Shown here one piece after another: positions 15,474 through 42,078 of a DNA stretch of 48,625 nt. The stretch is from Bacteroidota bacterium. GTDB lineage: Bacteria; Bacteroidota; Ignavibacteria; Kryptoniales; JAKASW01. The stretch spans positions 1 to 48,625 of the forward strand of contig JAKAGT010000031.1 of NCBI GenBank assembly GCA_021825585.1. Direction: 5' to 3'. Numbering within the stretch: the stretch's first letter is position 1; each line of letters begins with the position of its first letter. A model generated the notes under the pieces. It was given only the letters and a program-made list of their open reading frames with translations. It was not told the origin of the DNA and searched no databases. Made by a program: the position numbers and the translations under genes.

Positions 15474-15631
15474 CGTTATCTGCAAGGATCTGTAATCAAA
15501 TGATGGATCATGTTTCCGTTTTCCCGTGCATGCACGCCGGGGTGAGTTTCGGCACGCAGGCGTGTTCCATTCTACCTTTTCCCATCATAAGGCGAATTCC
15601 TGTCTCCTCTCCCCTGTTTCTTTCCCCCTCC

Positions 15632-17437: not shown

Positions 17438-17458
17438 TTGTTTACCTGACTTGATAAA

Positions 17459-17580
17459 TGCCAAACACCAAAATCCAAGTCCCAAACAAAAACACAGCTC
17501 CAATAAACAACATGGACTCCATACGTTTTGAGACTCAAGTATGGTTCATTGGAACTTGGCGATTGGAGCTTGGAGCTTTT
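17459..17580. repeat. word-like intergenic repeat A
   Basis: A CCAA-rich left arm (CCAAACACCAAAATCCAAG at 17461-17479) and a TTGG-rich right arm (CATTGGAACTTGGCGATTGG, 17547-17566) give a long imperfect inverted repeat. The same type occurs at 21928-22104 and 28046-28192, always in the same orientation and between minus-strand genes. It fills the gap between the MFS and metallophosphoesterase genes, and its right end touches the MFS stop codon. Confidence 0.7.
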
Positions 17581-18824: not shown

Positions 18825-19538
18825 TCATCCATAGCTCTGGAGCTCAAGTTCTTTCCGAGTATAAGATTGGTTTACGAGATTCCCCACAGATATAGATATC
18901 ACTGCGGCGAGCAGGACATCCGAGAACCAATGCTGGTCATGATAGATTCTCCCGAGGCATGTGAGCGCCCCGAGCAAATACCAGAATCCTTTCCAGAACC
19001 TCTTCCTGGAAAAGCCCGCCAGGATCATCGAGTAAGCGACTGCCACGCCGACATCACCCGACGGGAACGAAAGGTGCACATTGGGACCGAAGGTCGGTCC
19101 CACGAACGCAAAGCTGCCGTGTCCCGTGAACGGCCTCCATCTGCCGAAGAGGGACTTGAAAATCGTCACCGTGATTCCTGAAATCGCAAATCCCTCAAAT
19201 ATCTTCCAGCCCGCCGTTCGGAGTGTATCATGTCGTATCGCCAAGCCGATCAGGTAGAGGATTATGAACGAGTCGAGAGTCAGATGGATCTTGCCGTACC
19301 AGTGAGCAAAAGAGAATACTCCGTCGAGAAAAGGCGTGTGTATCTCGGCAAATAGCACACGGACAAATGGATCGACGAAGAAGAGTCCGGGGAATAGGAC
19401 TATGCCCGCGGCAACATACCGCCAGGTTCTTGTTTGCCAACTAAAGGGCAATTTATAATACGAGACCAGGTCCGTCCAGAACTGTTGAAAGTCTCTTTTT
19501 ATATTACCGATGCGTCCGGAATTAATCTTATCGTTCAT
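18825..19538 (-). CDS. PAP2-family membrane phosphatase
   Basis: 237 residues with about five to six helices. The three family motifs are visible: KSLFGRWRP (K-x6-RP), FPSGD (usually PSGH) and GRIYHDQHWFSDV (R-x5-H-x3-D). The second motif carries Asp where most members have the catalytic His, which could lower or change activity. Members remove phosphate from lipid carriers or phosphatidic acid at the outer membrane face of the inner membrane. It begins 7 bases after the HyfB-like gene and ends 30 bases before the MFS gene. PAP2-type enzymes are fluoride-sensitive phosphatases as a class, which may matter in this island. Confidence 0.88.
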   Translation of the reverse strand: MNDKINSGRIGNIKRDFQQFWTDLVSYYKLPFSWQTRTWRYVAAGIVLFPGLFFVDPFVRVLFAEIHTPFLDGVFSFAHWYGKIHLTLDSFIILYLIGLAIRHDTLRTAGWKIFEGFAISGITVTIFKSLFGRWRPFTGHGSFAFVGPTFGPNVHLSFPSGDVGVAVAYSMILAGFSRKRFWKGFWYLLGALTCLGRIYHDQHWFSDVLLAAVISISVGNLVNQSYTRKELELQSYG

Positions 19539-19545: not shown

Positions 19546-21444
19546 TCACAGTAAAAACGCGAGAACGAACACGACTAAGATGTAGAGCACGTACAATGAA
19601 ATCTTTCCGTTCATGACGGTCCTGCCGACGAAGTAACTCAGCTTTCTCACGAACTTGTTCAGGTACTCGTATAAGTATTCGGCGGCATCTTTGTTCGTGA
19701 CTTCCGCTGTGTACCCTGTTCTCACCTCCCTTGTGAGATAGAGTTTGCGAAGGACATATTCGAGAATGAAGGAGTAAGCAGGGACCGTGAAGTATTCATC
19801 TTCTGTCAGCGCCAGGCCGCCATTCCAGGCCTGGACCTTACGCGATTTTTTGGCACTCCTATGGTAAAGGAGATACGGAATTAGGAAAAGGAACCCCACC
19901 ACGACAAGAAACATTGTTGGCGATACGACTCCGAAGATCGGATTGCTAGACAGTATCAGAAGCGGATCCGGAACCGCAAGCAGACCACCCAGGAAATTTG
20001 AATAACCAAGGAGCCTGACGATATAGGGAGAAAATACGCCGCCAAGGATGAGCAGGGCAATAAAGAACATTTCAGCGGACTTTATTCTCGCTGATGGGAA
20101 TTGATGAGTTTTCCTCCCGTGGTCCGGGCCAAGCGCGGTATAGCCAATCAGTTTTATCATCGAGAAGGCCGCGAGACCGATTGCGAGCGCGATGAGAATT
20201 CCCGCAAATGCCGCGATGAGCCGTTCGGCATTGCCTTCAAATTTGTATGACTGGAAAAGCGCCTCGAGCACCATCCACTCCCCCACGAAGCCAATCGTCG
20301 GTGGAAAGGCGCTAAAGGAAAGTCCGGAAGTGAGTATTCCGGCGGCCGGAATCCCTCCGACGTTGCTCCATATTCCGCGAACATTATCGATACTCTCTTC
20401 CTGGAGAGACTCTTTTGCGTGGCCGACAGACATGAATAGCAGCGATTTAGCCACGGTGTGTGAGAACGCCACGAATAGAGCCGCGAGAAAAGCGAACCGT
20501 GAAAGGATTATCATCGGTTGAGTACCGGCCGCCCCCGCCATGGCGCTTAACCCGATTGCTGTCAGTATTATCCCGTTGTTTTCCACGGTGGAGTAGGCGG
20601 GAAGTTTCTTAAGGCTTCTTTCGGCGGCGGCCTGCATTGCCCCCCAGAACGCGGAGATGGCGCCAAGCGACAGCACCATCACGCCCCACCAAGTGGAATA
20701 GCCGACCAGCGAGAGAGTCCTCACGATTCCATAAACCCCCATTAGAGTCAATGGGGCGCTCAAAAGTGCCGCGGTATTCGAGGGAGCCTTTGAATATGCT
20801 CCGGTTACCCAGGTATGGAAAGGGAATATATCCATCTTTATGATGAACCCTAAAGTAACCATCACGAGAAAGAACGGCGCCGCCTGCGAGTGGGCAAGCG
20901 CGGCTGAAACGCCGTCCCTTATCGAGAAGGAGCCGCTTGTGAGGAACAGAGACGCGAATCCAATTATCAAAGCCATTGCGGAGGCCTCACCGAACGCGAT
21001 GAACTGAAAAGCCTCCTCGTGGGACTCTTTGCGCTCGAGAATCTGGAGGAACAAGCCTATTGTCATCAACTCCCAACCTATCAGGAAATCGACGGAGTCC
21101 TGGGCAGAAATGACGAGTGTCATTCCGAAGAGAGATAAGTTAAACCACGCGGCCATTTTCCGACTGAAGAGTTTGCCGAAATCGATGGAGTAAAAGGTGA
21201 GCGCGACGAACGAAAGCGAAGCGACTATCAGGAAAATTCCGGAAGTCTTGTCGAGTCCAATTCCGATGGATAATCCCGGCATCATCGAAAATTGCGGCGA
21301 AGAGCATTCCTTGGTCAACGCTAAAATTCCGGCAACAAGCGAAGAGAGCGCGCCGGCAAATGCGATCCCATAACTCAGCTCCCTCCGAAGGGAGAGGACT
21401 ATTCCGAGCAGGTAAAGGGCGAAGGACAAATACAAGAACGTCAT
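19546..21444 (-). CDS. HyfB/NuoL-like proton-pumping antiporter subunit
   Basis: 632 residues, about fourteen to sixteen helices. It belongs to the NuoL/Mrp antiporter family as found in hydrogenase-4 and Ehr complexes. Key ion-path residues are present: the Glu in FLIGWELMTIGLF, the Lys in IKMDIFPFHTWVTGAYSKAP and the Lys in FSHTVAKSLLFMSVGH. The C-terminal part (FTVPAYSFILEYVLRKLY to the final helix) is the hydrogenase-4 B type extension. It is the last gene of the membrane-complex operon, starting one base after the NuoB-like gene. The pump apparatus thus looks intact although the redox subunits beside it do not. Confidence 0.9.
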   Translation of the reverse strand: MTFLYLSFALYLLGIVLSLRRELSYGIAFAGALSSLVAGILALTKECSSPQFSMMPGLSIGIGLDKTSGIFLIVASLSFVALTFYSIDFGKLFSRKMAAWFNLSLFGMTLVISAQDSVDFLIGWELMTIGLFLQILERKESHEEAFQFIAFGEASAMALIIGFASLFLTSGSFSIRDGVSAALAHSQAAPFFLVMVTLGFIIKMDIFPFHTWVTGAYSKAPSNTAALLSAPLTLMGVYGIVRTLSLVGYSTWWGVMVLSLGAISAFWGAMQAAAERSLKKLPAYSTVENNGIILTAIGLSAMAGAAGTQPMIILSRFAFLAALFVAFSHTVAKSLLFMSVGHAKESLQEESIDNVRGIWSNVGGIPAAGILTSGLSFSAFPPTIGFVGEWMVLEALFQSYKFEGNAERLIAAFAGILIALAIGLAAFSMIKLIGYTALGPDHGRKTHQFPSARIKSAEMFFIALLILGGVFSPYIVRLLGYSNFLGGLLAVPDPLLILSSNPIFGVVSPTMFLVVVGFLFLIPYLLYHRSAKKSRKVQAWNGGLALTEDEYFTVPAYSFILEYVLRKLYLTREVRTGYTAEVTNKDAAEYLYEYLNKFVRKLSYFVGRTVMNGKISLYVLYILVVFVLAFLL

Positions 21445-21445
21445 A

Positions 21446-21925
21446 TCAGTTCGTTCCTCCCTTGATCTTCAGAAGGACAGCAATCAACTCTCCCGGCTCC
21501 CGGTAATTCGTAAGGTGGGCAACGACGTTGGGGAGATTAAGGCTTTTGATACCCACACCAGTCTGGCTTTTCCGGCGCGTGGGATCTTCGTTCTCGACCA
21601 CCACAATGGAAAATGGTTCCGGCATCTGATTGACGGTCTCCGTAAGAACCGGTACCATCTTTTCTGTGGGTCTTCCAAGAACCAGCAGCACGTCCGCGTG
21701 TCGCGGGACGTCGGCGAAGAAGATGCCAAACCTGTGGATGTTGTACTGCGGAGCCTGCAAGGCTCGTATATCTAAATTCAAGTCGTTTGAGTTACCAACA
21801 TCAATCGGATAAATATGCAGGGACTTCCGGAAGATTTTGATTTTCGTTTCTACTGTCTGTTCGGTCGCGTAAGGCTTCCGTTCCGTCAATCTCTTCGTCA
21901 GTCCCCAGACAGGCCACCACTTCAT
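21446..21925 (-). CDS. NuoB/HyfI-like subunit that has lost all cysteines
   Basis: 159 residues from ATG 21925, which has GGAG five bases upstream; a longer TTG start would use repeat sequence. The fold is clearly that of NuoB and group 4 hydrogenase small subunits: SLHIYPIDVGNSNDLNLDIR corresponds to the usual S-L-H-x-Y-x-x-D-x-G-x-C-N-x-C-D-x-E, and the ALQAPQYNIHRFGI and HADVLLVLGRPT stretches follow. All four cluster-binding cysteines are gone and the whole protein contains no cysteine, so it cannot hold the proximal [4Fe-4S] cluster. It should be structural only. One base separates it from the HyfB-like gene, and repeat B lies just upstream. Confidence 0.85.
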   Translation of the reverse strand: MKWWPVWGLTKRLTERKPYATEQTVETKIKIFRKSLHIYPIDVGNSNDLNLDIRALQAPQYNIHRFGIFFADVPRHADVLLVLGRPTEKMVPVLTETVNQMPEPFSIVVVENEDPTRRKSQTGVGIKSLNLPNVVAHLTNYREPGELIAVLLKIKGGTN

Positions 21926-21927
21926 AT

Positions 21928-22104
21928 AGGCTCCAAGTTCCAATTCCCAAGTTCCAAAGAAGTTCCAAATACCAAAATCAAAAAATCAAACGCCAACAAT
22001 TCCAACCAGCAACTAGAACTACTTGAACACATGAGACTCCTTTTTCTTTTTTGCAGCTTGGAGCTTTGCTTTTGTTTGGAGCTTGGTGTTCGGAACTTGG
22101 GATG
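21928..22104. repeat. word-like intergenic repeat B
   Basis: The longest of three related elements. Left arm: CTCCAAGTTCCAATTCCCAA at 21931-21950 with further CCAA words; right arm: TTTGGAGCTTGGTGTTCGGA at 22075-22094. It separates the NuoD-like and NuoB-like genes. Its left end, read on the minus strand, gives the GGAG that acts as ribosome binding site for the NuoB-like gene. Confidence 0.72.
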
Positions 22105-22106
22105 TT

Positions 22107-23360
22107 TCATCGTGCAGCATCCGCGAAATACGCTCCGAAGGAGTCAACAGCGAAGGGAAAATCGGTGAAGATGTTCCCGGGCAATGATTCCGTTATAGCT
22201 TTGAATCCTAAGAGAGACGGGGTGGCAGCGTAGACGGAAGCAAGCTTTCCCTTCTCGATTTCAACATGATACGCGAGGAGGCCACTTGGAGATTCGCAGT
22301 AACCAATACCGGAACCGGTCCCGTTATGTCCTCTCCGGCCATGTTCAACCGGCTCTATTCCGGATTCACTCAGTTCTCTCAACTCTCCCGCGGTATCCGA
22401 GATGATTTCAACCGACCCGAACACTTCCTCCGCTCTCACCTCCATGCGGGCCAGCGAATCTCCCATCTGCGAGGTGGCGCATCTTAACCCCTCGTAATCG
22501 GGGTCATGAAGTCTGAAGTCCTCTCTTACGCCGGTAGCTCTCAGTGTCGGGCCCGTGACTCCGATCGTCATTGCTTTCTCCGAATCAAGCTTTGCCGTAT
22601 CATGCAAACGATCCATGAAATTCTCGCTCTCAAGAGCGCGTTTGTAAAGATATTCGAACCGGTCGGACAAGCCGTTTATTCTGCGCGAGAGATGTATCAA
22701 CGCCTCGATGTTGATAGGTTTCCTGGTGGCGGCAATTCCGTTAAATCCCTTCAAGAACCTGGAGCCGAAAAAGTCGTTGTTCAGGCGCAGGAGACCCTCG
22801 TAAATTGCCTGTAAGTGGCTTGTCATCACCTTTTGCGCCGCTGCGGAAGCGAGCTGTGTTATCACGTAGATGTGATTATATATTCTCTCAAGCTCGAGTC
22901 CGATGATCCTCAACTTCTTTGTCTGCATCGAGACTTCAATGCCAAGGGCTGACTCCACGGCTTTCGCAAAGGCGAGAGAATGTGCGAAAGCGAAATTGCC
23001 GCAGATGTCTTCTGCCCTGCCCACTGCGTCGTGCACGCTCTGTGTTATCATCGACCTCTCGATCCCCCGGTGTTTGTAGCTCCAGTCGATATTGACGCAC
23101 AGAATTCTTTCACCGTAAGTGAACAGATGGTATGCGCCTGATTCAATGACTCCACCTGTTACCGGACCATATCTGAAATCAAAGACACCATCGCCGAAGA
23201 CCTCCTGCCCTTCTATGCCCTTATCACGATTGGCTAGCAAGTCCAATTGGCCATCAATAGACGCACCCGACGATTTCCCGGATGTAATCCACACTTCGCT
23301 GCCATCGTGAACGAGGAGACGGTTCCGGTCGTTATCCAAAATTCCGATCTGGCGGTTCAT
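22107..23360 (-). CDS. NuoD/HyfG-like large subunit lacking the NiFe-binding motifs (Ehr type)
   Basis: 417 residues. It matches the large subunit of group 4 hydrogenases and NuoD in FDFRYGPVTGGVIESGAYH, CVNIDWSYKHRGIE, and VESALGIEVSMQTKKLRIIG. Where NiFe hydrogenases carry R-x-C-G-x-C-x-x-x-H it reads EDICGNFAFAH (one Cys at 120, the second replaced by Phe 123), and the C-terminal D-P-C-x-x-C is replaced by SFGAYFADAAR. Nickel therefore cannot be bound. No NuoC domain is fused and no NuoC gene is nearby. This is the hallmark of energy-converting-hydrogenase-related (Ehr) complexes, whose function is unknown. It starts 58 bases after the HyfF-like gene. Confidence 0.87.
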   Translation of the reverse strand: MNRQIGILDNDRNRLLVHDGSEVWITSGKSSGASIDGQLDLLANRDKGIEGQEVFGDGVFDFRYGPVTGGVIESGAYHLFTYGERILCVNIDWSYKHRGIERSMITQSVHDAVGRAEDICGNFAFAHSLAFAKAVESALGIEVSMQTKKLRIIGLELERIYNHIYVITQLASAAAQKVMTSHLQAIYEGLLRLNNDFFGSRFLKGFNGIAATRKPINIEALIHLSRRINGLSDRFEYLYKRALESENFMDRLHDTAKLDSEKAMTIGVTGPTLRATGVREDFRLHDPDYEGLRCATSQMGDSLARMEVRAEEVFGSVEIISDTAGELRELSESGIEPVEHGRRGHNGTGSGIGYCESPSGLLAYHVEIEKGKLASVYAATPSLLGFKAITESLPGNIFTDFPFAVDSFGAYFADAAR

Positions 23361-23418
23361 TCTACCACAACTCCTTCGGCTCCATGCGCCATAGACTTTG
23401 CGCTTCGCGTTCTTCTTT

Positions 23419-24789
23419 TCATTTCACAGCGACTCCCCTCAGGAACATGTAAATCACCGGCGTAAGAAACGTGATACTCAGCGCAACGGCCAACCCGATG
23501 ATCGGAACGGTCGCATTATCATCCAGGTGTTTGTATTGACCATCCGGCTCGGAGAACACCATGCGTACGATACGGTAGTTGATACCGATAAATGCAACTA
23601 CAAGAAACGAGGCGATGAGGATAGTGAACCAGGCTCCGTAAACGCTAATCATGCGCGTCATTATAAGAAGCTCGCCGAAAAATGTCCCGAACGGAGGCGC
23701 ACCGGTGACTGCGAGCGAAGCGAAGAAGAGCGAGTAACCGGTGAGCGGCATTGTTTTGGACACTCCCTTCACGTCCTTGATGGCGCTTGTGCCGTAACCC
23801 GCGAGGACGTTCCCTGTGAGGAAGAATGCGGCCGATTTTGCAAAAGCGTGCGTCAGGATTATTATCACGCTGCCGATAAAGGCATTTCCACCGAGAGCAA
23901 TGCCTATCAGCGCGACGCCCATGTTTTCGATTGAAGAATACGCAAACATACGCTTGTAGTACCGTTGCGAGAATGCCATGAGAGAAGCCACGATGACGCT
24001 GAGTGAACCGAGAACAACGGCAAAATTCCTCACGCTCTCGAGTGGAACGATCTGAACGAACCGTACGATTGTATATAAAGCGACTGGAAGGAGCACGGCG
24101 GAGAACATGGCGCTTACCGGCGCGGGCGCGCGCCCGTGAGCATCAGGGAGCCATGTATGCATCGGGAAGATTCCGCCCTTCGTCCCATAACCTATAATTC
24201 CGAGAAGCGCACCTACAGAGACGATCTTTGTTGCCTGTGGAGCTTGCAGGAGGGCGTTCAACGAAAGGGTGTGAAACCCACCATAGATAAAAATCGTGGC
24301 AAGAAGAGATATCGTAAGTCCAGTGGAAACGATGACTATATATCTCCACGTTGCCTCCACTGCAACCTCGTTGTTATCAGTCGCAATGAGCAGTGCGCTC
24401 GTCACGGTCGTTGCTTCGACGCCGACCCAAAGCAGACCGACGTTGTCGACCATAACGGTGAAAAACATCGAAACAACGAACCAATTGAGGAGAAGAAAGT
24501 AAAGATTAGTCTGGAACAACTTGTTCTCAATATGGTCGAGATAGTGAATCGAGAATATGACAGTGAGGACATAAACAGCGGAAATCATTAGCTGCATTAG
24601 CTTGGAAAAGCCATCCACATATAATCCAAATGAACTTGCATCCGGCATGAAGGCGATAAGTATGGAGGCTCCGAGCGTCGCAAAGGAGGCGACTATGGAA
24701 ACATCCTCTTCAAATCGTGTTTTCGGTATGAGGCACAAGAGTCCCCCAATCCCACTCAGTGCGACCGGTAAGTAATAGATCCAAATCAT
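23419..24789 (-). CDS. HyfF/NuoN-like antiporter subunit
   Basis: 456 residues with about fourteen helices. Conserved elements of the antiporter-like subunits are present: the Glu in LLWVGVEATTVTSALL, the Lys in IGYGTKGGIFPMHTWLPDAH followed by GRAPAPVSAMFSAVLLPVAL, the middle-channel Lys in FSQRYYKRMFAYSSIENMG and THAFAKSAAFFLTGN. The length and the last part fit hydrogenase-4 subunit F. It starts 3 bases after the HyfE-like gene. Since this family carries proton translocation in complex I-like enzymes, the complex may still move protons or sodium even without redox chemistry. Confidence 0.9.
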   Translation of the reverse strand: MIWIYYLPVALSGIGGLLCLIPKTRFEEDVSIVASFATLGASILIAFMPDASSFGLYVDGFSKLMQLMISAVYVLTVIFSIHYLDHIENKLFQTNLYFLLLNWFVVSMFFTVMVDNVGLLWVGVEATTVTSALLIATDNNEVAVEATWRYIVIVSTGLTISLLATIFIYGGFHTLSLNALLQAPQATKIVSVGALLGIIGYGTKGGIFPMHTWLPDAHGRAPAPVSAMFSAVLLPVALYTIVRFVQIVPLESVRNFAVVLGSLSVIVASLMAFSQRYYKRMFAYSSIENMGVALIGIALGGNAFIGSVIIILTHAFAKSAAFFLTGNVLAGYGTSAIKDVKGVSKTMPLTGYSLFFASLAVTGAPPFGTFFGELLIMTRMISVYGAWFTILIASFLVVAFIGINYRIVRMVFSEPDGQYKHLDDNATVPIIGLAVALSITFLTPVIYMFLRGVAVK

Positions 24790-24792
24790 GGA

Positions 24793-25458
24793 TTAACCTC
24801 TCAACTCCGTGAAGTCTTCTCGACGAGTCGAGTCCTCGACTTCGGTATTCTGCGCCGGCTCTTCCTTCAACCGAACAATGACTCCGGAGATCATGACAGT
24901 GCCGATGACATCGAGTACAACTCCGGCTTCCACGACGAACGGGAGTTCCGGGAAAAGGGATCCGAACAGATACAGGGCGTTTTCCATCACAAGGTAGCCG
25001 ATGAGCTGCGTAATCGGATTGCTCCTGGAAATTATCAGGAACGCCCCCTGCAGGAAGAGCGCAACGGGTATCGCTCCAAATGCCGAATGGACATAGTCGT
25101 ACATTGTCCAGGTGTAAATGACATAGCCGAACACGGCAAACAGAAGAGACAGGATTATGGTCGAGGCGATTCCCAATACAGGTTTTAATTCCCTTGCTCT
25201 CCATCGGTCACGCCTGAGCATCCTTGACAGGAAGCCCGGAATGAACCAGGCTCTTATCCCAGCAGTGAGAAAACCTAACACCATCAAATACGGCTCCCCG
25301 TTGACATATCCCGCGGCAAGAAGGAAGGCCGCAAGAAAATAGGAACCGACTGAAAAAGTCTTTATGACACTCGAGATGTAGATCTGCCACTGCATGAAAG
25401 CTACAAGAGCAATTTGAATGAACCCGACTAAGATGAATATCTCGTTGAGATTGAACAT
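24793..25458 (-). CDS. HyfE-like membrane subunit (NuoK-like)
   Basis: 221 residues from ATG 25458, preceded by a good GGAGGG box; the longer frame overlaps the previous gene and is a shadow. Six to seven helices. The C-terminal half reads TQLIGYLVMENALYLFGSLF and FVVEAGVVLDVIGTVMISGV, with the Glu of the M-E-N-x-x-Y/F motif and of V-E-x-G, as in hydrogenase-4 subunit E and NuoK, where these glutamates line the proton path. It lies one base after the HyfC-like gene and 3 bases before the HyfF-like gene. Confidence 0.88.
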   Translation of the reverse strand: MFNLNEIFILVGFIQIALVAFMQWQIYISSVIKTFSVGSYFLAAFLLAAGYVNGEPYLMVLGFLTAGIRAWFIPGFLSRMLRRDRWRARELKPVLGIASTIILSLLFAVFGYVIYTWTMYDYVHSAFGAIPVALFLQGAFLIISRSNPITQLIGYLVMENALYLFGSLFPELPFVVEAGVVLDVIGTVMISGVIVRLKEEPAQNTEVEDSTRREDFTELRG

Positions 25459-25459
25459 T

Positions 25460-26416
25460 CTAAAACCCTCCTCCCGGTCTCGTTGTGAAGAAAACCAGGG
25501 CGGCCAGGAACGCGAAGACAAATGTGACGGCGACATAGTCAAATATTTTGAACAACCGGTATTTGGAAACCGATTCGTTGAGAAGCGCAAAGACAACCAC
25601 CAGTACCAGAATCTTAACGAAGTTTATAAGGGCATAAACCAGGACCGCCGGGATCGAGAGCGCCATCGGCACCAGGAAAGGAACCGCGAGAACATTCATA
25701 AACACATTCATGAGGAGGAAGTGTTTCATGTAGCTCCCCCATTTGTACAGGGCGAGCTCCCTGCCGGAATATTCCATTTCCATCGACTGGTCGATCATTC
25801 CCAGCTCTCCCATGGAATGAGATTCGATGGGGAGTTTTCCGGTCTCAACGATCAACACCATGAAGAAGGCAATCGTAACGAACCAGTGCACAAGCGAACC
25901 ATACCAGGCACCAGATGTCTGAAGAATATTGTTGATGACGTAGGGATTATTGGTATGTGAGATTACTCCCAGCATGATGAATATAAGAAGCATTATCGGT
26001 TCGGAAAGGGCTCCAATACTCGCAGCCCTGGACGTGCCCAGATGCGAGTAGTTGTTCCTGCTGTCAAGAGCCGCAAGCTTCTTGATTGCCGCGGCGGCGC
26101 CGAACACGAGTCCGCCGCCCATGAAGTCGACAACCGGGCCGAACGTGAGAGGAAAGGCAGTTATTATCGGCAGGACCAGTGTGAGGAGCAGGTAAAATGC
26201 AAACGTCAAATAAGGTGCGATCCGGAAAAATGGTAAAGCAACGCCGGGGACGAGGCTTTCTTTCCGGAAAAGCTTAGCGAGATCGTAGTAAGTTTGGAAG
26301 ATGGAGGGCCCCTTCTTGGACTCAAGGAGTTCTTCAGTCTTCGCGAGTACTCCGGCCGCCAACGGCGCCAGCAGCACAACATACAGGAGCTGAAGTATGC
26401 TGAGGATCAAAAGCAT
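25460..26416 (-). CDS. HyfC/HycD/NuoH-like membrane subunit
   Basis: 318 residues with about eight helices. It resembles the formate hydrogenlyase subunit 4/NuoH family: APLAAGVLAKTEELLESKKG and SIFQTYYDLAKLFRKE near the N-terminus (loop contacting the peripheral arm), VETGKLPIESHSMGELGMID in the middle with conserved acidic residues, and EYSGRELALYKWGSYMKHF. It is the first gene of the operon and anchors the NuoD/NuoB-like subunits in relatives. Upstream lies a 238-base gap with a possible degenerate fluoride aptamer (26526-26587) and an AGTAACCG/CGGTTACT hairpin near the start codon. Confidence 0.9.
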   Translation of the reverse strand: MLLILSILQLLYVVLLAPLAAGVLAKTEELLESKKGPSIFQTYYDLAKLFRKESLVPGVALPFFRIAPYLTFAFYLLLTLVLPIITAFPLTFGPVVDFMGGGLVFGAAAAIKKLAALDSRNNYSHLGTSRAASIGALSEPIMLLIFIMLGVISHTNNPYVINNILQTSGAWYGSLVHWFVTIAFFMVLIVETGKLPIESHSMGELGMIDQSMEMEYSGRELALYKWGSYMKHFLLMNVFMNVLAVPFLVPMALSIPAVLVYALINFVKILVLVVVFALLNESVSKYRLFKIFDYVAVTFVFAFLAALVFFTTRPGGGF

Positions 26417-26654: not shown

Positions 26655-27008
26655 TTACGGTGTTTTACCATGGGTATAGTGGATCACGGTCGCCTTTTCC
26701 TCAGTTACCATTCCACCGCACCCGGACTTCTCGAAGAGCTCGGTCACTATCGGAAGAAAAGCGTCTATCTTCTCCTCGGTATCGACTATTTCTATCACGA
26801 GAGGAAGATCTTCGCTGAGTTCTAGAAGCTTGGCAGTGTGTATCCTGCTTCCCGCGCCATAACTTTCTACTCCGCGCAAGACTGTTGCGCCGGCCATCCC
26901 GAACTCTTTCGCCCGCTCGACGAATACCTCGTAAAGGGGTCGTCTGTTCAGGTGGTCTTCTTCACCTATGAAGATTCGGAGAAGTTTCCCGGTTCCTTCA
27001 AGTTTCAT
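26655..27008 (-). CDS. DUF190 protein, second copy, crcB partner
   Basis: 117 residues from ATG 27008, which has GGAGG five bases upstream; an ATG at 27020 is in frame but carries that box inside it. Motifs GKLLRIFIGEED, MAGATVLRGVESYG, LSEDLPLVIEIVDTE and GCGGMVTEEKATVI are those of DUF190 and closely parallel the copy at 16.4-16.7 kb. DUF190 genes commonly follow crcB, and here the gene begins right after the crcB stop, so it is under the same fluoride riboswitch. The PII-like fold suggests a regulatory or sensor role for fluoride export; not proven. Confidence 0.92.
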   Translation of the reverse strand: MKLEGTGKLLRIFIGEEDHLNRRPLYEVFVERAKEFGMAGATVLRGVESYGAGSRIHTAKLLELSEDLPLVIEIVDTEEKIDAFLPIVTELFEKSGCGGMVTEEKATVIHYTHGKTP

Positions 27009-27019
27009 TTTATCCTCCA

Positions 27020-27394
27020 TTAGATTACTCTCCCTGCCATGGTTCCGACCCACGTCGCGGTAAGTCCGACGACAATCGAAACGGCAACGTTCAATAACCC
27101 AATCGCAACGGCGCCATCTTTGAGCAATCCCACGGTCTCGAAGCTGAAAGTGGAAAAAGTCGTGAAGCCTCCGAGCACTCCGACCGCGAAGAATATGCGG
27201 AAGGACGGGCTGATCAAGAACCTGTCCTCAGCCATCGTGAGGAACAGGCCGATCACAAAGCAGCCGATGACATTTACCGCAAGCGTGCCGTATGGGAAAT
27301 CGGTACCGAGGACATTGTAAACCCATCCGGACAACAAGTAGCGAAACACGGCACCAATACCGCCGCCGACAAAAACGAGTATATTTCTAACCAT
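27020..27394 (-). CDS. crcB: fluoride channel/exporter CrcB (Fluc)
   Basis: 124 residues from the ATG at 27394; a longer frame would begin inside the riboswitch terminator. Four helices, as expected of the dual-topology Fluc dimer that lets fluoride leave the cell passively. Family motifs: GGGIGAVFRYLLSGW, FPYGTLAVNVIGCFVIGLF with the pore Asn, and GVLGGFTTFSTFSFET with the conserved TTFSTF loop containing the pore Phe. One copy only is seen, so it should form homodimers. A fluoride riboswitch with terminator lies directly upstream (27429-27532), and DUF190 follows without a gap. Confidence 0.97.
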   Translation of the reverse strand: MVRNILVFVGGGIGAVFRYLLSGWVYNVLGTDFPYGTLAVNVIGCFVIGLFLTMAEDRFLISPSFRIFFAVGVLGGFTTFSTFSFETVGLLKDGAVAIGLLNVAVSIVVGLTATWVGTMAGRVI

Positions 27395-27428
27395 TTCATT
27401 TCTTTCATATTTGTAGTTGTGTATATAC

Positions 27429-27483
27429 AAAAAATCCTGTCACGCACATCTGGTCCGAAATGCAAAAGACCGTGCTGACAGGA
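27429..27483 (-). terminator. intrinsic terminator of fluoride riboswitch 1
   Basis: On the minus strand TCCTGTCA-GCAC pairs with GTGC-G-TGACAGGA, followed by six T. Its 5' arm shares TCCT with the aptamer. Confidence 0.92.
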
Positions 27484-27532
27484 GTCATCATTTGCGCAAC
27501 AGCGCAAAGTTTATTCGGCGAACTCCATCGCC
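27429..27532 (-). promoter_or_regulatory. fluoride riboswitch 1 (crcB motif) upstream of crcB
   Basis: Minus strand: GGCGATGGAGTTCGCC, GAATAAAC, a perfect 7-bp third stem TTTGCGC/GCGCAAA, then TGATGACTCCT (aptamer 27480-27532). GAGT of the first loop can pair with ACTC to form the pseudoknot. The ACTCCT end overlaps the 5' side of an intrinsic terminator (27429-27483), so fluoride binding should block termination and switch crcB on. A plausible promoter (TTGCAG, 16 bases, TAAATT) precedes it within 27533-27571. Confidence 0.95.
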
Positions 27533-27571
27533 ATAATTTAATTTAACTAATCACAACGAGTCTGCAAAACC

Positions 27572-27988
27572 TCACCAAGGCTTTTCGTGGTCACCTAGAC
27601 TCTGCAAAATCACCTCCACAATCCTTGAGGCTACCGCAGACCGGAAATTCCCCCTTCTGTTAAGTCCGTCTGCCACATCTGCGTCATCTTCTCCGAGAAT
27701 ATGGGCAATTGCCTTGATAAATGCGCGTGCCATGATTGGATCAAGGTCGACGCGGTTGACAAAAGCGTTTGCTATGGCATCCGCGCCGGGTCTCGACCTT
27801 CGCGTCGCGAGTATCTCAGCGGCCCTCATCGCCGTCTGAGGCTCGAAATGCATGAGCGCCTTCATAAGCTTTTCGTCGTAAGTCAAATTGTTGAAGGCGG
27901 ACAAGCTGCTCCCACAAGAAGGACAGACCGTGTCCTCCTCGCGGACCTCGCGCCAGCATTCGGTGCAGAATATCCTCGTCTCAGACAT
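27572..27988 (-). CDS. zinc-ribbon protein with helical C-terminal part, unknown
   Basis: 138 residues. The N-terminus has FCTECWREVREEDTVCPSCG, a C-x2-C and C-x2-C zinc ribbon (residues 8-25). The rest, with LMKALMHFEPQTAMRAAEIL and repeated A-rich amphipathic helices, looks like a short HEAT/ARM-type array. I do not recognise a named family. It lies between repeat C (upstream) and the crcB riboswitch (40 bases downstream) and reads in the same direction, so it is either the last gene of the riboswitch-2 operon or separately expressed from within the repeat. ATG 27988 has GAAAGG upstream. Confidence 0.6.
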   Translation of the reverse strand: MSETRIFCTECWREVREEDTVCPSCGSSLSAFNNLTYDEKLMKALMHFEPQTAMRAAEILATRRSRPGADAIANAFVNRVDLDPIMARAFIKAIAHILGEDDADVADGLNRRGNFRSAVASRIVEVILQSLGDHEKPW

Positions 27989-28045
27989 CTAGATGCCTTT
28001 CAAGGCGTGTGCCTCAACACGATTCATCGTTTATCGAATGGCGCT

Positions 28046-28192
28046 AAGCTCCAAACACAAAAATCCAAATTCCAAACAACTTCTAAGCTCCAATTCCCAA
28101 ATTCCAACAACGAGTTTGCCGGGGCAGCTTTGTCTTTTGTATTTGGACATTGGAGCTTGTTTGGAGCTTGGTGTTTGGATCTTGGAGTTTCC
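28046..28192. repeat. word-like intergenic repeat C
   Basis: Left arm AGCTCCAAACACAAAAATCC (28047-28066) with several CCAAATTCC words, right arm TTTGGAGCTTGGTGTTTGGA (28160-28179). Same layout and orientation as the elements at 17.5 and 22.0 kb. It separates the 137-residue and the zinc-ribbon protein genes. Confidence 0.72.
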
Positions 28193-28197
28193 ATTAA

Positions 28198-28611
28198 TCA
28201 TCTTCCCAGGTCTTTAAGAGCTTTTATTATGTATTCCCTGGCGACCTCGACATCGTCCAGCATTTTTTCTGCGAGGGCGAGCTGTTCATAGGGATCGTAA
28301 GAGACTTTGTTCCAATCGAAATAACCTTCAAGGAACTCCGCGCCGAACTCATGATTCGCGATCTTTACGTTCTCGAAGGGATACAGGATTTCCATCTTCT
28401 CGCTCTTCAAAACGCGTTCAAATGATTCGGCAAATTCAAGCAGGTTACCTGCCGCCTTCCCAAAATCTTCGAATGCAAGGACGAGAATCGTAATGAGCGC
28501 GTCCAACCGTTTGGTATCGCCGCGTACGAAGCAGAGCTTTCGAAGTGTATCGACGGCAAACCCAAACTCATCACTTATACGATGAACGGGATTCTCAATC
28601 TGCGCGCTCAA
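28198..28611 (-). CDS. helical protein of unknown function in fluoride-responsive operon
   Basis: 137 residues, largely alpha-helical by composition (ALITILVLAFEDFGKAAGNL, LALAEKMLDDVEVAREYIIK), no membrane segment, two cysteine-free halves and a conserved-looking YPFENVKIANHEFGAEFLEG in the middle. I do not recognise a family. The first codon is TTG at 28611, so the start is uncertain. The gene follows the 241-residue Cys/His protein after 53 bases, a purine-rich stretch of AGGTCAAGAGGTAAAGAGG type that could supply ribosome binding sites. By position it is the fourth gene of the operon behind fluoride riboswitch 2. Confidence 0.55.
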   Translation of the reverse strand: MSAQIENPVHRISDEFGFAVDTLRKLCFVRGDTKRLDALITILVLAFEDFGKAAGNLLEFAESFERVLKSEKMEILYPFENVKIANHEFGAEFLEGYFDWNKVSYDPYEQLALAEKMLDDVEVAREYIIKALKDLGR

Positions 28612-28664
28612 TCTCCCTTATTCCCTTTCACCTTTGACCTCTTTACCTCTTGACCTCCTTCTTA

Positions 28665-29390
28665 CTACCATCTCATTTGCCCCGAGAATAAGTTCACAGC
28701 ATCCAGGTAGCTGTCCAGCTCATACCGGGTGTAATCATGAGCGCCCTGGTAATCATGCTTCATTATGAAATTTGACACGTCGTTTTTCATCTTCTTTACC
28801 TTTTCTATGGTGGCATGCAATAAACGCGGGCTCGCTTTCTCCTTTGCCAGCATCTGAACATGCCTGAAGCAGATGAGGGTCTTCGAGTCTTTATATTCCG
28901 CGATCAACTCATCATCGTCTGACAAGTACAAAAGACTATGCAGCGTGATTTCTTCGGCATTCTTCACGAAATCACACACGAAACATTTGCCTGCATCGAC
29001 TGATCGGACAGTTTTCTTTTTCTTCCTCTTGTTAGTTTCGGCGGCGATTTCCTCGATAAGCTTAACCTGCTGTCCAAGAAGAGCTATATTTTCCTCCAGG
29101 ACCGTTTCAAACATAGTCGCAAGATGAAGGCCGTCGCTTCCTAATTTGACCTCCGCCATGAGAGCGAGCTTCGCGTGACGCGTACAGAATCCGTGTTGGC
29201 GATGCAGTTTCTTGCGAACTCCTACGTCGAGGACATATTCGTAAAGCAGCCCCTCAAGGTAATGCTGCTCGGTCCTCTCAATTTGGGAACACACCGGGCA
29301 TCCTGTTCCACGCAATGCCTCTTCCAACCTAACCCAGCTTATGCCCCGCTTCGCACGGGTCATGTCATCTTCAATAAAGGGCTCAGTCAT
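28665..29390 (-). CDS. Cys/His-rich protein with two CxxC/CxxH pairs (DUF6062-like), larger copy
   Basis: 241 residues, soluble. Two similar halves each begin with a C-x-x-C and continue with a C-x-x-H about 40-55 residues later: GTGCPVC (28-34 region) with GFCTRHAKL, and KCFVCDF with LICFRHVQML. Each half could bind one zinc or another metal. A lysine-rich linker (KRKKKK) joins them. This pattern resembles the uncharacterised DUF6062 type. The start codon directly follows the stop of the 201-residue paralog. Expression under fluoride riboswitch 2 is inferred from the unbroken operon. The role is unknown; nothing in the sequence indicates an enzyme. Confidence 0.7.
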   Translation of the reverse strand: MTEPFIEDDMTRAKRGISWVRLEEALRGTGCPVCSQIERTEQHYLEGLLYEYVLDVGVRKKLHRQHGFCTRHAKLALMAEVKLGSDGLHLATMFETVLEENIALLGQQVKLIEEIAAETNKRKKKKTVRSVDAGKCFVCDFVKNAEEITLHSLLYLSDDDELIAEYKDSKTLICFRHVQMLAKEKASPRLLHATIEKVKKMKNDVSNFIMKHDYQGAHDYTRYELDSYLDAVNLFSGQMRW

Positions 29391-29996
29391 TTATTTCCTT
29401 CCACTAAATTTCTCGACGCTTCTCCAAAGCGAGCTTTTGACATCGGCGCTGACCTGGTAGTAATTTCCGGTTTCTAACACCTTGAGCTGGTCGAAAAGTC
29501 TTTGCAGGGAGTCCTTGTAGGCGTTAAGAATCTTCTCCCTGTTTGCGGGATAAGTACTCGCGAGTACCTTCTTCAAGTGATCAAGGCAGACAAAATCTCC
29601 GGTCGATTTCTCAAAAGGAACTTCTGCTATCTTGCGGACCTCTTCCATGTCGGCCAACTCGAGGCATTCGCAGACAGGGCATTCCCGATGATACTCGCGG
29701 AAAATATTCATGGCTCCGTTCGCTCCATCTTCACCTAAACTTTTCCTGATCAAATACCTGAGCAGCTTCGAGGAAATCCCCGAGGAAGTAATCCGGTTGA
29801 ACATCCTCAGGTGTTTCCCACATATGCCATACAATCCACTTGTTTCGAGATAATCCTCGTCTCCCTTCCCGACGTTGTACTGTAGTTGAGCAAGCGCATC
29901 GAACTGTATATTCCAAATACGTTCACAGATCGGGCAGCCTTCAGATGCCTTGACCTCTTCGGCGTCCTTATTTCCAGGGATCGTCGTACTGGTCAT
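29391..29996 (-). CDS. Cys/His-rich protein with two CxxC/CxxH pairs, smaller copy
   Basis: 201 residues with the same layout as its downstream neighbour: EGCPICERI and GICGKHLRMF in the first half, ECPVCECLE and FVCLDHLKKV in the second. The four motifs would make two four-ligand metal sites. No membrane segment. The start lies inside the end of the zinc-finger gene upstream (29-base overlap) and the stop touches the start of the next gene, so the three are tightly coupled. The repeated use of the same architecture in two adjacent genes suggests a hetero-oligomer. Function unknown; placed behind fluoride riboswitch 2. Confidence 0.7.
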   Translation of the reverse strand: MTSTTIPGNKDAEEVKASEGCPICERIWNIQFDALAQLQYNVGKGDEDYLETSGLYGICGKHLRMFNRITSSGISSKLLRYLIRKSLGEDGANGAMNIFREYHRECPVCECLELADMEEVRKIAEVPFEKSTGDFVCLDHLKKVLASTYPANREKILNAYKDSLQRLFDQLKVLETGNYYQVSADVKSSLWRSVEKFSGRK

Positions 29997-30264
29997 GTTT
30001 TATGTAATCTTTTTTGAGGCTGTCGATGATGTCTTGGATGTAAATCACCTTTATCAGCAGGTTCTCGTTGAGTTTCGGGGCTTCGCCGGATATCTTTTGG
30101 AAGCTATGTGCATCTACCCTTGCATCGAGATGTTTGTCAAGTTCATCTTTCTCCAGGAACAGCTTGTTACAGGCTCTGCACCTATACTGGACACCGGAGA
30201 GTCGTTCGACGGCGAACGGCACTCCCCTTCGCTTCCTGAACTTAACCTTCAATGCCGGGGTCAT
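29968..30264 (-). CDS. small C2H2-like zinc-finger protein, first gene behind fluoride riboswitch 2
   Basis: 98 residues. A C2H2-like finger is visible as YRCRACNKLFLEKDELDKHL followed by a further His (DAHSF), giving C-x2-C-x12-H-x-n-H spacing. The N-terminus is basic (KVKFRKRRG), the C-terminus helical and charged. ATG 30264 has GAGGAG eight bases upstream, and the riboswitch terminator ends about 24 bases before it, so fluoride-dependent readthrough would directly control this gene. Bacterial C2H2-like fingers can bind nucleic acid or proteins; neither is shown here. I do not recognise a named family. Confidence 0.68.
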   Translation of the reverse strand: MTPALKVKFRKRRGVPFAVERLSGVQYRCRACNKLFLEKDELDKHLDARVDAHSFQKISGEAPKLNENLLIKVIYIQDIIDSLKKDYIKHDQYDDPWK

Positions 30265-30288
30265 ATACTGAGCTCCTCACATTTATGA

Positions 30289-30328
30289 CAAAAAACTCCT
30301 GCCTCTGATATTGTCAGCAGCAGGAGTC
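30289..30328 (-). terminator. intrinsic terminator of fluoride riboswitch 2
   Basis: Minus strand ACTCCTGC pairs with GCAGGAGT, with an inner CTGA/TCAG stem, followed by TTTTTTG. The 5' arm is shared with the aptamer's ACTCCT, the usual mutually exclusive arrangement of an on-switch. Confidence 0.92.
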
Positions 30329-30367
30329 ATCATCATGATCGCATGATATTTGGCGAACTCCATCGCC
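30289..30367 (-). promoter_or_regulatory. fluoride riboswitch 2, between dynamin gene and Cys/His-protein operon
   Basis: Minus strand: GGCGATGGAGTTCGCC, AAAT, third stem ATCATG/CATGAT, then GATGACTCCT (aptamer about 30321-30367). The loop GAGT can pair with ACTC. It lies only 36 bases after the dynamin stop codon, so it can act within the dynamin transcript or from its own promoter. The start of the zinc-finger gene follows the terminator after about 24 bases. Confidence 0.95.
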
Positions 30368-30403
30368 GGTTTTCCACTCATCTGGGAAACATCGAAGCCG
30401 GGT

Positions 30404-32203
30404 TCATTTTTCCATCTCCGCGAATTGGCTTTCAAGAATTGTCAGCCCGGAAAGAGCCTCTTCATATTCTAATACCTTGCCGGAGGATTCAGCCGAATTT
30501 GCTTCTCTCATTGCCACCGCATCATCGATTATGGCACTGATTCGCGACAGGTGATCAATCACAGAATCGGAGAACATTTTGCCAAGTTTTAGCATGCTCT
30601 TGTCGATCCTTTGAAGTATGTCATATCTGACTCTGCCGCATTGCCTGTCAAATTCGATCCTGAGCGTCTCCTTCTGTTTCCTGAGAATAAGGTGCCTCGC
30701 AATACCTTTTGGCAGCCGCTTGACGAGCGCGTCGGATAGCTCTTCGAGAGAGGGCTTGATATCTTCGAGTATGAAGTAATAGAATTCAGAGTCGTCATTG
30801 AACAGGAGGTAATCCTGCAACCTCTCAAACTGAACATCGAACAGTTCTGCGGCATGTTGGTACACGTCGTCTATCAAGTCGTTCATCCGGCCAAACAGTT
30901 CCGCCACAGCGGCATTGAATTTCGACCTGATTTTCGACTCCTCATCTTCCCGCCACTTATCGATGGCTTGAGTGACAAGGCTGATGATAGTCTCGTCGAG
31001 CTTTGAGATGAGTTGAGAAGCTGTCAGGCTTGAGTAACGCGACGCGATTTCATCGAACTCCTGTTCGATCACGGGAACGGACCTCTCCTCGAACTGCACC
31101 CTGTCCTCTTCAACCATTGTCGTGATATTAGACGCCGTGTAGATAACACGGGAGATCTCTTCCTGCCTCCGCCGGATCTCTGCCCTGAAGTTCCTAAATT
31201 CCTCGACCTTCTTTTGGAGGCTTTCCGCCGACTCCGAATAGGCCTTGAGCCGGAGCTTCGCGAGAGTGGAGGCCTCTGCCGCTATCTTCCTCGCACGGCG
31301 CGCAGCAACGTTAACGAGGACTTTCGATTTTTCGCCGGCCAAAAAATCCCCGAGCGATTTTTCGAGAGTGCGAATACTGCTTTTCTCCTCAAGTTGTTCA
31401 TCTCTTGTTAATCTCGCTTTGAGGGCGGTCTTGGAACTCAGCAGGAAGAGCCTGATGCTTTCCTTGTCGACCGACATTTCCTTAGACAACGAGTCCCGGA
31501 TGAATTCAGCCGCCTCTTGTCCTTCCGCTTCGGTCAGCATGTCCATCTTATTAAGCACGAAGAAGATTTTCGTCACGTGCTCGCGGACATTTCGGAGAAA
31601 CTCAACTTCGCCGATACTGAGGGGCTGGTCAGCTGTCATGAGAAATATTGTAGCGTCGGATTCGGGGAGGAAATGGTTTGCGGCGTCTGTATTGTGCGAG
31701 TAAATCGAGCCCACACCCGGTGTGTCTACCAGCTGGACTCCCCCCTCGAGGAACGCGACCGGCAGCTCTATGTCAACCGACTGAACTTTTCTGACGTTTT
31801 GCGGATTGCGTTTTTCGGTTACATACTCCGGGAGTTCATCGCGCGATATGACCTCCCTGGTTCCGTTCGTGAAGGTGGCTATAATTTCTTCAACGGGGCC
31901 GTAACGCAGTATGGTAACGATTGAGGTCAGAGGGACAACCGCGGTGGGCAGGATAGCCTCCCCAATCAGCGCGTTTACAAGAGTCGATTTACCGCGCTTG
32001 AATTGTCCCACGACGACAAGGTTGAATTTCTCGTCCTGGATCTTCTTCGTGAGGGCTTCGATATGCGGGGCAAGATCCGGAAATTGGGGTGACAGAAGGC
32101 GTGAAAGCTTCCCAAGTTGGCCCAGGAGGCCGGCTTTTTTCGTCATTCCGCCGGAACTTCCGTCATTCAGGGGTTTCTTTCGGACTTCGGGGGCTGTCAT
32201 CAT
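30404..32203 (-). CDS. dynamin-like GTPase under a fluoride riboswitch
   Basis: 599 residues. The GTPase domain shows the G1 loop VVVGQFKRGKSTLVNAL (66-74 core), G2 Thr in PLTSIVT, G3 LVDTPGVGS (160-163) and G4 NKMD (218-221). After about residue 290 it is a long helical stalk with heptad patterns, as in bacterial dynamin-like proteins that bind membranes and drive fusion, fission or repair. A short hydrophobic patch occurs only around GIARHLI, so membrane contact is probably peripheral. Start ATG 32203 (or 32200) follows directly on the terminator of fluoride riboswitch 3, and riboswitch 2 follows the stop. It is the first gene of the island. A fluoride-induced dynamin suggests membrane damage control, an inference. 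Confidence 0.9.
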   Translation of the reverse strand: MMTAPEVRKKPLNDGSSGGMTKKAGLLGQLGKLSRLLSPQFPDLAPHIEALTKKIQDEKFNLVVVGQFKRGKSTLVNALIGEAILPTAVVPLTSIVTILRYGPVEEIIATFTNGTREVISRDELPEYVTEKRNPQNVRKVQSVDIELPVAFLEGGVQLVDTPGVGSIYSHNTDAANHFLPESDATIFLMTADQPLSIGEVEFLRNVREHVTKIFFVLNKMDMLTEAEGQEAAEFIRDSLSKEMSVDKESIRLFLLSSKTALKARLTRDEQLEEKSSIRTLEKSLGDFLAGEKSKVLVNVAARRARKIAAEASTLAKLRLKAYSESAESLQKKVEEFRNFRAEIRRRQEEISRVIYTASNITTMVEEDRVQFEERSVPVIEQEFDEIASRYSSLTASQLISKLDETIISLVTQAIDKWREDEESKIRSKFNAAVAELFGRMNDLIDDVYQHAAELFDVQFERLQDYLLFNDDSEFYYFILEDIKPSLEELSDALVKRLPKGIARHLILRKQKETLRIEFDRQCGRVRYDILQRIDKSMLKLGKMFSDSVIDHLSRISAIIDDAVAMREANSAESSGKVLEYEEALSGLTILESQFAEMEK

Positions 32204-32204
32204 A

Positions 32205-32240
32205 AAACGAAAAACTCCTACTTTTGGTCAAGTAGGAGTT
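32205..32240 (-). terminator. intrinsic terminator of fluoride riboswitch 3
   Basis: Minus strand AACTCCTACTT and AAGTAGGAGTT form an 11-bp stem with a six-base loop, then TTTCGTTTT. The stop point would be within a few bases of the dynamin start codon. Confidence 0.9.
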
Positions 32241-32297
32241 ATCAATCCCTGCCGATCGTCGACTTCTCGGGATAGTTGATGGGCGAACTCCATCGCC
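32205..32297 (-). promoter_or_regulatory. fluoride riboswitch 3 upstream of the dynamin-like GTPase
   Basis: Minus strand: GGCGATGGAGTTCGCC, CATCAACT, a third stem with ATCCC/GGGAT, then TGATAACTCCT (aptamer about 32234-32297). GAGT of the loop pairs with ACTC. GATAAC replaces the more usual GATGAC. The terminator arm AGTAGGAG is also the only ribosome binding site before the dynamin start codon, 11 bases away, so both transcription and translation could be controlled. Confidence 0.93.
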
Positions 32298-32643: not shown

Positions 32644-32864
32644 TACATTTCAATTACGAGCGGGTAGTCAAATGGAATTGTCAGGGTGTTTTTGTCCGAG
32701 TCCTCCGCCCGGAGTTCCAGTATTTTTCTTGCTACATCACGGGCGATCTCCAGCGTCTCGCTAACCGTACGCCCTTGAGCAACTAACCCCTCGACGTCGT
32801 CCGATGTTGCGAGAAAAACACCTTCCGGCAATTTTTCAATATGTACCTTCACAATGCGTTCCAT
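32643..32864 (-). CDS. hicB: HicB-like antitoxin (DUF1902 type)
   Basis: 73 residues, short HicB type without a DNA-binding tail. VKVHIEKLPEGVFLATSDDV and EGLVAQGRTVSETLEIARDV are the beta-beta-alpha RNase-H-like antitoxin fold that covers HicA. The ribosome binding site GGAGGTG precedes ATG 32864 by six bases. Since no helix-turn-helix is present, autoregulation would need HicA or another factor. Confidence 0.88.
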   Translation of the reverse strand: MERIVKVHIEKLPEGVFLATSDDVEGLVAQGRTVSETLEIARDVARKILELRAEDSDKNTLTIPFDYPLVIEM

Positions 32865-42067: not shown

Positions 42068-42078
42068 GTTATAGGGCG

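Follow-up and report, generated by a model that had tools for sequence, protein, structure and literature searches.

Described targets of the fluoride riboswitch (RF01734) include exporters, antiporters, pyrophosphatase, enolase, HAD proteins, MutS and formate hydrogenlyase, among others (PMC2864571, PMC11139923, PMC5533749). In E. cloacae FRM, for example, one riboswitch governs the GI3 operon ppaC-uspA-eno-gpmA-crcB (PMC5533749). Here we analyse a related locus in 48,625 nucleotides of DNA from a Bacteroidota bacterium (contig JAKAGT010000031.1 of GenBank assembly GCA_021825585.1). The whole of this stretch is referred to as the window. The locus shares much with RF01734 regulons, namely the aptamer, an overlapping terminator, crcB, DUF190, enolase, MutS and a hydrogenase-like operon. 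Similarly, it has in common with the E. cloacae operon the form of a multi-gene, riboswitch-controlled island, an exporter, enolase and UspA. However, the E. cloacae operon has no dynamin or Cys/His proteins, and one riboswitch rather than four. Compared with RF01734 regulons, the window adds a dynamin-like GTPase, DUF6062-type Cys/His proteins, a small protein that we call P98, zinc-ribbon/HEAT proteins, and a cluster of four aptamers within 6 kb. A known riboswitch regulon here probably gains a new class of effectors.

The whole window was searched against Rfam using cmscan, with a permissive scan for weaker copies. Three matches to RF01734 exceeded the gathering score of 34 bits, all on the minus strand. 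The first aptamer (32306-32226, 39.1 bits, E 2e-7) heads the dynamin gene, the second (30376-30314, 38.3 bits, E 3.7e-7) a five-gene unit, and the third (27541-27472, 41.4 bits, E 3.5e-8) crcB and the DUF190 gene. The respective distances between aptamer and open reading frame (ORF) are 22, 49 and 41 nt. The original prediction, made by a model from the DNA letters, had placed three such riboswitches upstream of a dynamin, a run of Cys/His and helical proteins, and crcB-DUF190. The covariance search agrees for all three copies, and not for the crcB copy alone, while the middle run resolves to five ORFs (98, 201, 241, 137 and 138 aa). The predicted sequence motifs and overlapping terminators are also present. 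Briefly, GGCGATGGAGTTCGCC is identical in aptamers 1-3, and the 3' segment GAT(G/A)ACTCCT likewise occurs in all three. Each aptamer is followed by a hairpin and U-run sharing its 3' ACUCCU segment (-16.5, -21.0 and -22.9 kcal/mol). For riboswitch 1, the hairpin is at 32240-32213, with its U-run. One of the three hairpins was independently picked up by a terminator scan. Because the terminator hairpin re-uses ACUCCU, aptamer and terminator are mutually exclusive, which is the layout of a transcriptional ON-switch. In such an arrangement, the terminator would form without fluoride; with fluoride, the folded aptamer would block the terminator and the units would be switched on. Chance riboswitch matches were considered as an explanation and rejected.

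The permissive scan identified a fourth, sub-threshold aptamer (26596-26520, minus strand, 32.0 bits, E 4.2e-5) preceding the hydrogenase-like operon. No overlapping terminator was seen for this copy. Both presumed pseudoknot halves are altered in concert (GACGCC/GGCGCC), so that the 3' segment matches its loop. Since the two halves change together, riboswitch 4 is supported. A counterpart, scoring 32.5 bits, occupies the same place on contig C88. Note that the original prediction included neither riboswitch 4 nor the genes by which the run extends as far as enolase, at 11025.

The gene behind the first riboswitch (30404..32203, minus strand) encodes a 599 aa dynamin-like GTPase (Dynamin_N, 1.9e-28) with a BDLP/IniA-like fold. 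The nucleotide-binding motifs GQFKRGKS, DTPGVGS and NKMD are present. The closest sequences of solved structure are Nostoc BDLP (the best match, 5.6e-42), C. jejuni DLP1/2 and IniA. A model generated by AlphaFold2 (AF2) had a predicted local distance difference test score (pLDDT) of 75.5, a predicted template modelling score of 0.62, and a BDLP-like helical neck and trunk. Using this model, Foldseek ranked BDLP 2j69 first (9e-22) and IniA 6j72 second (5e-21). Hence, the layout of GTPase, neck and trunk is shared with Nostoc BDLP (PDB 2j68, 2j69). However, the window protein is 17% identical by structural alignment, shorter, and without a clearly hydrophobic paddle. Mycobacterial IniA (PMC6715688; PDB 6j72, 6j73) is also a stress-linked bacterial dynamin, and shares the fold, but is induced by tuberculosis drugs, not fluoride, and has about 17% identity to the window dynamin. 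Comparison with the C88 copy gave a nonsynonymous substitution rate (dN) of 0.21 and a synonymous rate (dS) of 2.8. Immediately upstream of the dynamin unit, at 32419-32864, are a HicA toxin gene and a HicB-like partner (DUF1902).

The five genes behind the second riboswitch are also on the minus strand. P98 (29968..30264) is a zinc-finger-like protein of 98 aa, with a CxxC...H motif and a weak zf-C2H2 match (0.038); C29, C32 and H45 are invariant in its alignment. The gene overlaps that of P201 (29391..29996), which in turn abuts that of P241 (28665..29390). Given this overlap and abutment, a single transcript is likely. The 241 aa P241 is a DUF6062 protein (PF19538, 2.6e-20), scoring 73.3 bits against a curated cut-off of 27, with two CxxC/CxxH pairs. 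The 201 aa P201 also has two such pairs and matches no Pfam or NCBIfam family above cut-off, PF19538 included. It aligns with DUF6062 at all eight Cys/His positions, and is probably a divergent relative, which we do not count as a member. These positions (C31, C34, C69, H72, C136, C139, C174 and H177) show little or no variation across bacteria and archaea. The AF2 model of P241 is all-helical and confident (pLDDT 85). No structural relative was found by a search of solved structures (nothing to E 1), by Foldseek (E >= 1.2) or by VIA (best Z 4.9). P137 (28198..28611) is a helical protein matching no Pfam or NCBIfam family, and is conserved in C88, G118, G085 and C58. P138 (27572..27988) combines an N-terminal zinc ribbon, with matches slightly below cut-off, and a helical HEAT-like domain. 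Wherever dS could be calculated against the C88 copies, the genes behind the first two riboswitches show purifying selection (for P98, dN 0.085 and dS 1.27); dS was saturated for P241 and P137. DUF6062 also occurs in Pyrodictiaceae and Desulfurococcales archaea (L079, L080, L083), with no fluoride riboswitch nearby, and has a wider role as a family. There was no DUF6062 match among plasmids.

The same association recurs within the class. Among 149 genomes sampled, riboswitches are found in 31, DUF6062 in 8 and the dynamin family in 10. Riboswitches are present in all eight DUF6062 genomes (hypergeometric 1.6e-6). Ten of the 12 DUF6062 copies are in riboswitch units. Of the remaining two, the C58 copy stands at the edge of its contig and the C77 copy has no riboswitch. 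Close copies of the dynamin, defined by E below 1e-170, are in riboswitch units in nine of nine cases, and gene orders differ. In G090 the riboswitch precedes dynamin, as in G005, where P98 is downstream. The orders are riboswitch-dynamin-DUF6062-crcB in G007 and riboswitch-PAP2-P98-DUF6062-enolase-dynamin in G086, while in G140 enolase is followed by riboswitch-dynamin-antiporter-UspA. Hence, P98 homologues lie behind fluoride riboswitches in both G086 and G005. Zinc-ribbon/HEAT relatives of P138 occupy riboswitch units in G086 and G328, and a HEAT protein does so in the Bacillota locus L081. No riboswitch was detected beside weaker dynamin matches in G088 and G097. The riboswitch-linked dynamin is broken, by fragmentation or an internal stop, in L070 (G078), L179 (G272) and L243 (G343); thus, the switch sometimes outlasts the gene.

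Recurrence extends to other phyla. A search of named genomes with the DUF6062 alignment gave matches in Bacillota, Ignavibacteriales, FCPU426, KSB1, Anaerolineae and hyperthermophilic archaea. We sampled Bacillota and Chloroflexota, the database phyla of the genomes containing L081 and L082. In L081, a riboswitch (30.3 bits) precedes dynamin, and a second precedes antiporter-UspA-MFS-DUF6062-HEAT-DUF6062. Across 249 Bacillota genomes, riboswitches occur in 95, DUF6062 in 29, and dynamin in 21 (23 copies, at a cut-off of E below 1e-60). Fifteen of the 23 dynamins have a riboswitch on the same strand within 1.5 kb upstream. By chance, at about 1.6e-4 per gene, some 0.004 would be expected. Two further dynamins follow sub-threshold aptamers (31.8 and 24.6 bits) and two are farther down switch-headed operons, giving 19 of 23 in riboswitch units. 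For DUF6062, the equivalent figure is about 15 of 36 copies. Arrangements include riboswitch-DUF6062-dynamin (G361, G336, G192 and G304), riboswitch-dynamin-enolase (G394) and riboswitch-DUF6062-antiporter-UspA-dynamin (G309). In Chloroflexota, 20 dynamin loci were scanned, of which at least 3 have a riboswitch directly upstream. Many of the units with dynamin or DUF6062 also contain enolase, Na+/H+ antiporter, UspA or MutS, all of them established fluoride genes (PMC11139923, PMC5533749, PMC2864571). DUF6062 directly adjoins dynamin in several genomes, and DUF6062 in riboswitch units spans phyla. A further check implied by the original prediction was thus positive: fluoride aptamers also precede dynamin and Cys/His genes in further families of the class, as well as in the Bacillota phylum and Chloroflexota. 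The notion of a curiosity limited to one genus was rejected. Note that the viral contigs yielded one dynamin relative (L089), and no fluoride riboswitch was found there.

These counts bear on whether the genes are bystanders, before which riboswitch-promoter cassettes recombined with no functional association. A mobile or duplicated island is suggested by the three versions of the block within one assembly and by a transposase-like gene near the C88 block (both described below). However, recurrence in unrelated arrangements, across at least three phyla, and the 15 closely positioned Bacillota riboswitches largely refute the bystander explanation, which we find barely credible. Alternatively, the dynamin could be an anti-phage protein of the LeoA type, in the island by happenstance. 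Profiles for LeoA and LeoBC, in PADLOC, match the window dynamin at 9e-21 and 9e-17, and restriction-modification and SIR2 genes are found at 38-48 kb. However, any bacterial dynamin might score in this way. Furthermore, the gene is a lone dynamin, with no LeoB/C partner, whose neighbours are riboswitches and unrelated proteins. It is the fluoride riboswitch that recurs with dynamin in three phyla; defence neighbours do not. An anti-phage role is therefore very improbable. We conclude that the dynamin and Cys/His genes almost certainly belong to the fluoride riboswitch regulon, of which dynamin and DUF6062 are recurrent yet minor members.

The original prediction had also set dynamin and the Cys/His proteins apart from known riboswitch targets such as crcB. 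Indeed, crcB is among the exporters and partners of RF01734 regulons. The literature searched, outside which lies the original 2012 gene list, mentions neither dynamin with a fluoride riboswitch nor DUF6062 by name. Hence, the distinction holds for the papers covered and does not extend to the 2012 table. Papers pairing the fluoride riboswitch with a GTPase look, by their titles and abstracts, like general reviews or unrelated work. The bare association of dynamin and DUF6062 with the fluoride riboswitch is likely new.

We also considered the history of the association. Mapped onto a tree of 46 dynamins, the riboswitch label requires 6 changes, against a mean of 13.9 when shuffled, and well-supported branches force at least 3 of them; some branches are long, so exact change counts are unsure. 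Riboswitch-linked dynamins sit on several deep branches. This reflects either repeated recruitment or an old link with losses. CrcB gave no match in 10 of 29 dynamin-bearing genomes, so dynamin is not simply a CrcB accessory. Six of these ten (G090, G149, G192, G257, G304 and G158), which have both riboswitch and dynamin, also gave no match to CLC, searched at E 1e-10; completeness is known for G090 only (99%). These bacteria possibly use another exporter or an export-independent defence. The latter could be a module in which fluoride-induced dynamin and zinc-binding DUF6062 protect or repair the membrane, as a main defence of some bacteria, although we consider this rather unlikely.

What might the new regulon members do? 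We propose that, beside the exporter, enolase and pH-related genes, fluoride switches on the genes for a soluble dynamin of the BDLP/IniA type and for several CxxC/CxxH proteins of the DUF6062 type. Under stress from fluoride or hydrogen fluoride (HF), the dynamin would assemble on the cytoplasmic membrane, remodelling or patching it to preserve integrity, and so limit leakage of HF and protons. For the DUF6062-type proteins, we envisage a role as zinc-binding partners of this GTPase, or in protecting metalloproteins that are sensitive to fluoride. As HF passes through membranes and lowers the pH of the cell (PMC11139923), bacteria under fluoride stress plausibly need to limit membrane damage and leak. 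There are precedents for such activity. Thus, IniA, a dynamin induced by drugs, binds acidic lipids and has been proposed to keep the plasma membrane intact (PMC6715688), while DynA of B. subtilis supports membrane integrity under stress (PMC8844932). By analogy with these proteins, membrane maintenance by a peripheral dynamin of the IniA/BDLP type, helped by zinc-binding DUF6062 proteins, is our preferred, if tentative, mechanism, with somewhat less than even odds. For the proposal as a whole, comprising a fluoride-induced island, a membrane-acting dynamin and zinc-binding DUF6062-type partners or protectors, we estimate a probability of roughly 0.45.

Several observations weigh against this proposal. 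No strongly hydrophobic or transmembrane-like segment was found in the dynamin sequence, and its presumed membrane tip (residues 462-493) is disordered or of low confidence in the AF2 model. Among sampled Bacillota riboswitches, dynamin is the first or second gene in 4 of 60 cases, as is DUF6062 in 4 of 60. Canonical clostridial DUF6062 proteins, and those of Pyrodictiaceae archaea, have no fluoride riboswitch nearby; hence, the family is not fluoride-specific. What suggests a partnership between DUF6062 and dynamin is the proximity of their genes. Likewise, fluoride induction and a protective phenotype are presumed from regulation and synteny. Note that relatives share the two CxxC/CxxH pairs of P241, and that fluoride-linked DUF6062 proteins are only distantly related to the canonical clostridial members. 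The ordinary DUF6062 context was rejected as an explanation, since clostridial members adjoin other genes.

Two alternatives concern function directly. Dynamin-type GTPases are sensitive to metal fluorides. Hence, phosphate mimicry by magnesium or aluminium fluoride might inhibit GTPases, with more housekeeping dynamin made as a replacement, as for pyrophosphatase and enolase. The overproduction of enolase replaces an inhibited target (PMC11139923), and dynamin is often in the same unit as enolase. However, the class dynamin is almost confined to riboswitch units, and absent from most genomes, so that it resembles a dedicated stress protein. Target replacement also leaves the Cys/His genes unexplained, and we regard it as improbable. 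In the other alternative, fluoride perturbs metal sites, and the zinc proteins serve metal or protein homeostasis, buffering or re-delivering zinc, or rescuing metalloproteins, and the dynamin acts independently on membranes. Consistent with this, P98 and P138 are zinc-finger-like, as well as DUF6062 having its conserved Cys/His set. Conversely, zinc binding is predicted from motifs, the structural searches gave no relative for DUF6062, and direct adjacency to dynamin in several genomes argues against independent action. This explanation also seems improbable. Returning to the proposal of membrane maintenance, the original prediction had taken the shared aptamer as strong evidence that dynamin and the Cys/His proteins serve fluoride stress. 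The regulon link survives, since the aptamer is shared and recurs, while protection itself is what regulation and synteny suggest. The further suggestion, of an undescribed resistance system, is supported as regards fluoride effectors. These form a larger set rather than one fixed system, because composition varies between genomes. Dynamin and the Cys/His proteins very probably contribute to bacterial survival of fluoride and have been overlooked in this role. The riboswitch names a cue, fluoride, for bacterial dynamins and DUF6062 proteins, which mostly have no known cue. If our proposal is correct, fluoride resistance would comprise membrane maintenance and protection of metal proteins, as well as export and the overproduction of targets. 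This would be relevant to engineering organofluorine-degrading strains, and would offer a ligand-controlled system in which to study the purpose of bacterial dynamins.

The genes of the wider island all run in one direction, on the minus strand, over about 21 kb (32306 to 11025), with four switches at the head and enolase at the end. All genes listed here are on the minus strand. The crcB/Fluc fluoride channel gene (27020..27430; PF02537 6e-30, TIGR00494 2e-32) and the DUF190 gene (26655..27053; PF02641 2.6e-35) precede six ORFs of a hydrogenase/NADH-dehydrogenase-like membrane operon (19546..26416), with matches to Proton_antipo_M and Complex1_49kDa. Fluoride riboswitches are known to accompany genes of the formate hydrogenlyase type (PMC2864571, PMC11139923). 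The operon is directly downstream and has its own riboswitch. Hence, the Cys/His and zinc-ribbon proteins could mature or protect the adjacent hydrogenase-like complex, the dynamin being a separate passenger. P138 has a weak HypA-like zinc-ribbon match in keeping with this. However, in G007, G086 and the Bacillota clusters, DUF6062 and P98 occur in riboswitch units in which we saw no hydrogenase-like gene, and such a role is quite unlikely.

Beyond this operon are genes for a PAP2 phosphatase (18825..19538; PF01569 2.3e-18), of the kind opening the G086 riboswitch unit, and an MFS transporter (17580..18794; PF07690), with relatives in Bacillota fluoride clusters. A calcineurin-like phosphoesterase (16724..17503; PF12850 7.9e-23) has a relative in G086 that is the first gene after the riboswitch. 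There follow a HAD-family acid phosphatase (15632..16369; PF03767 2.6e-43) and two MutS-type ATPases (12322..15485; PF00488 1.6e-22 and 4.5e-19), the same pair being found in Bacillota fluoride clusters. Enolase (11025..12305; PF00113 3.5e-117) is at the far end. Thus, crcB, enolase and MutS share a co-directional island with the dynamin and Cys/His genes, and the arrangement is conserved in related genomes. Three further blocks from the genus are mostly colinear with the island, one on C88, a contig of this assembly, and the others in G118 and G085, with four aptamers at corresponding places in each; G085 has no MutS match, and G007 has a short form. G118 and G085 are Bacteroidetes metagenome-assembled genomes, and the order to which the window belongs includes Candidatus Thermokryptus.

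One assembly (G000) carries three versions of the block, on contigs C82, C88 and C58. At the DNA level, C88 is 86-95% identical to G118, and C58 about 90% identical to G085. The three versions reflect either transfer or duplication, or bin mixing (4% contamination). The transposase-like gene near the C88 block is at L009 13908-14960. Beyond the head of the island, a run of seven C at 33527-33533 breaks the frame of a thiamine-diphosphate enzyme gene (33115-34844, minus strand), owing to an assembly error, a pseudogene or slippage. The adjoining region at 38129-47647, encoding a SIR2-like protein and an Eco57I-type restriction-modification enzyme, is likely a defence region. On the other side of the island, at 1907-9544, are two P-type metal ATPases and an NRAMP-like transporter, named from sequence alone. 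Metal handling adjoins fluoride handling in the window.

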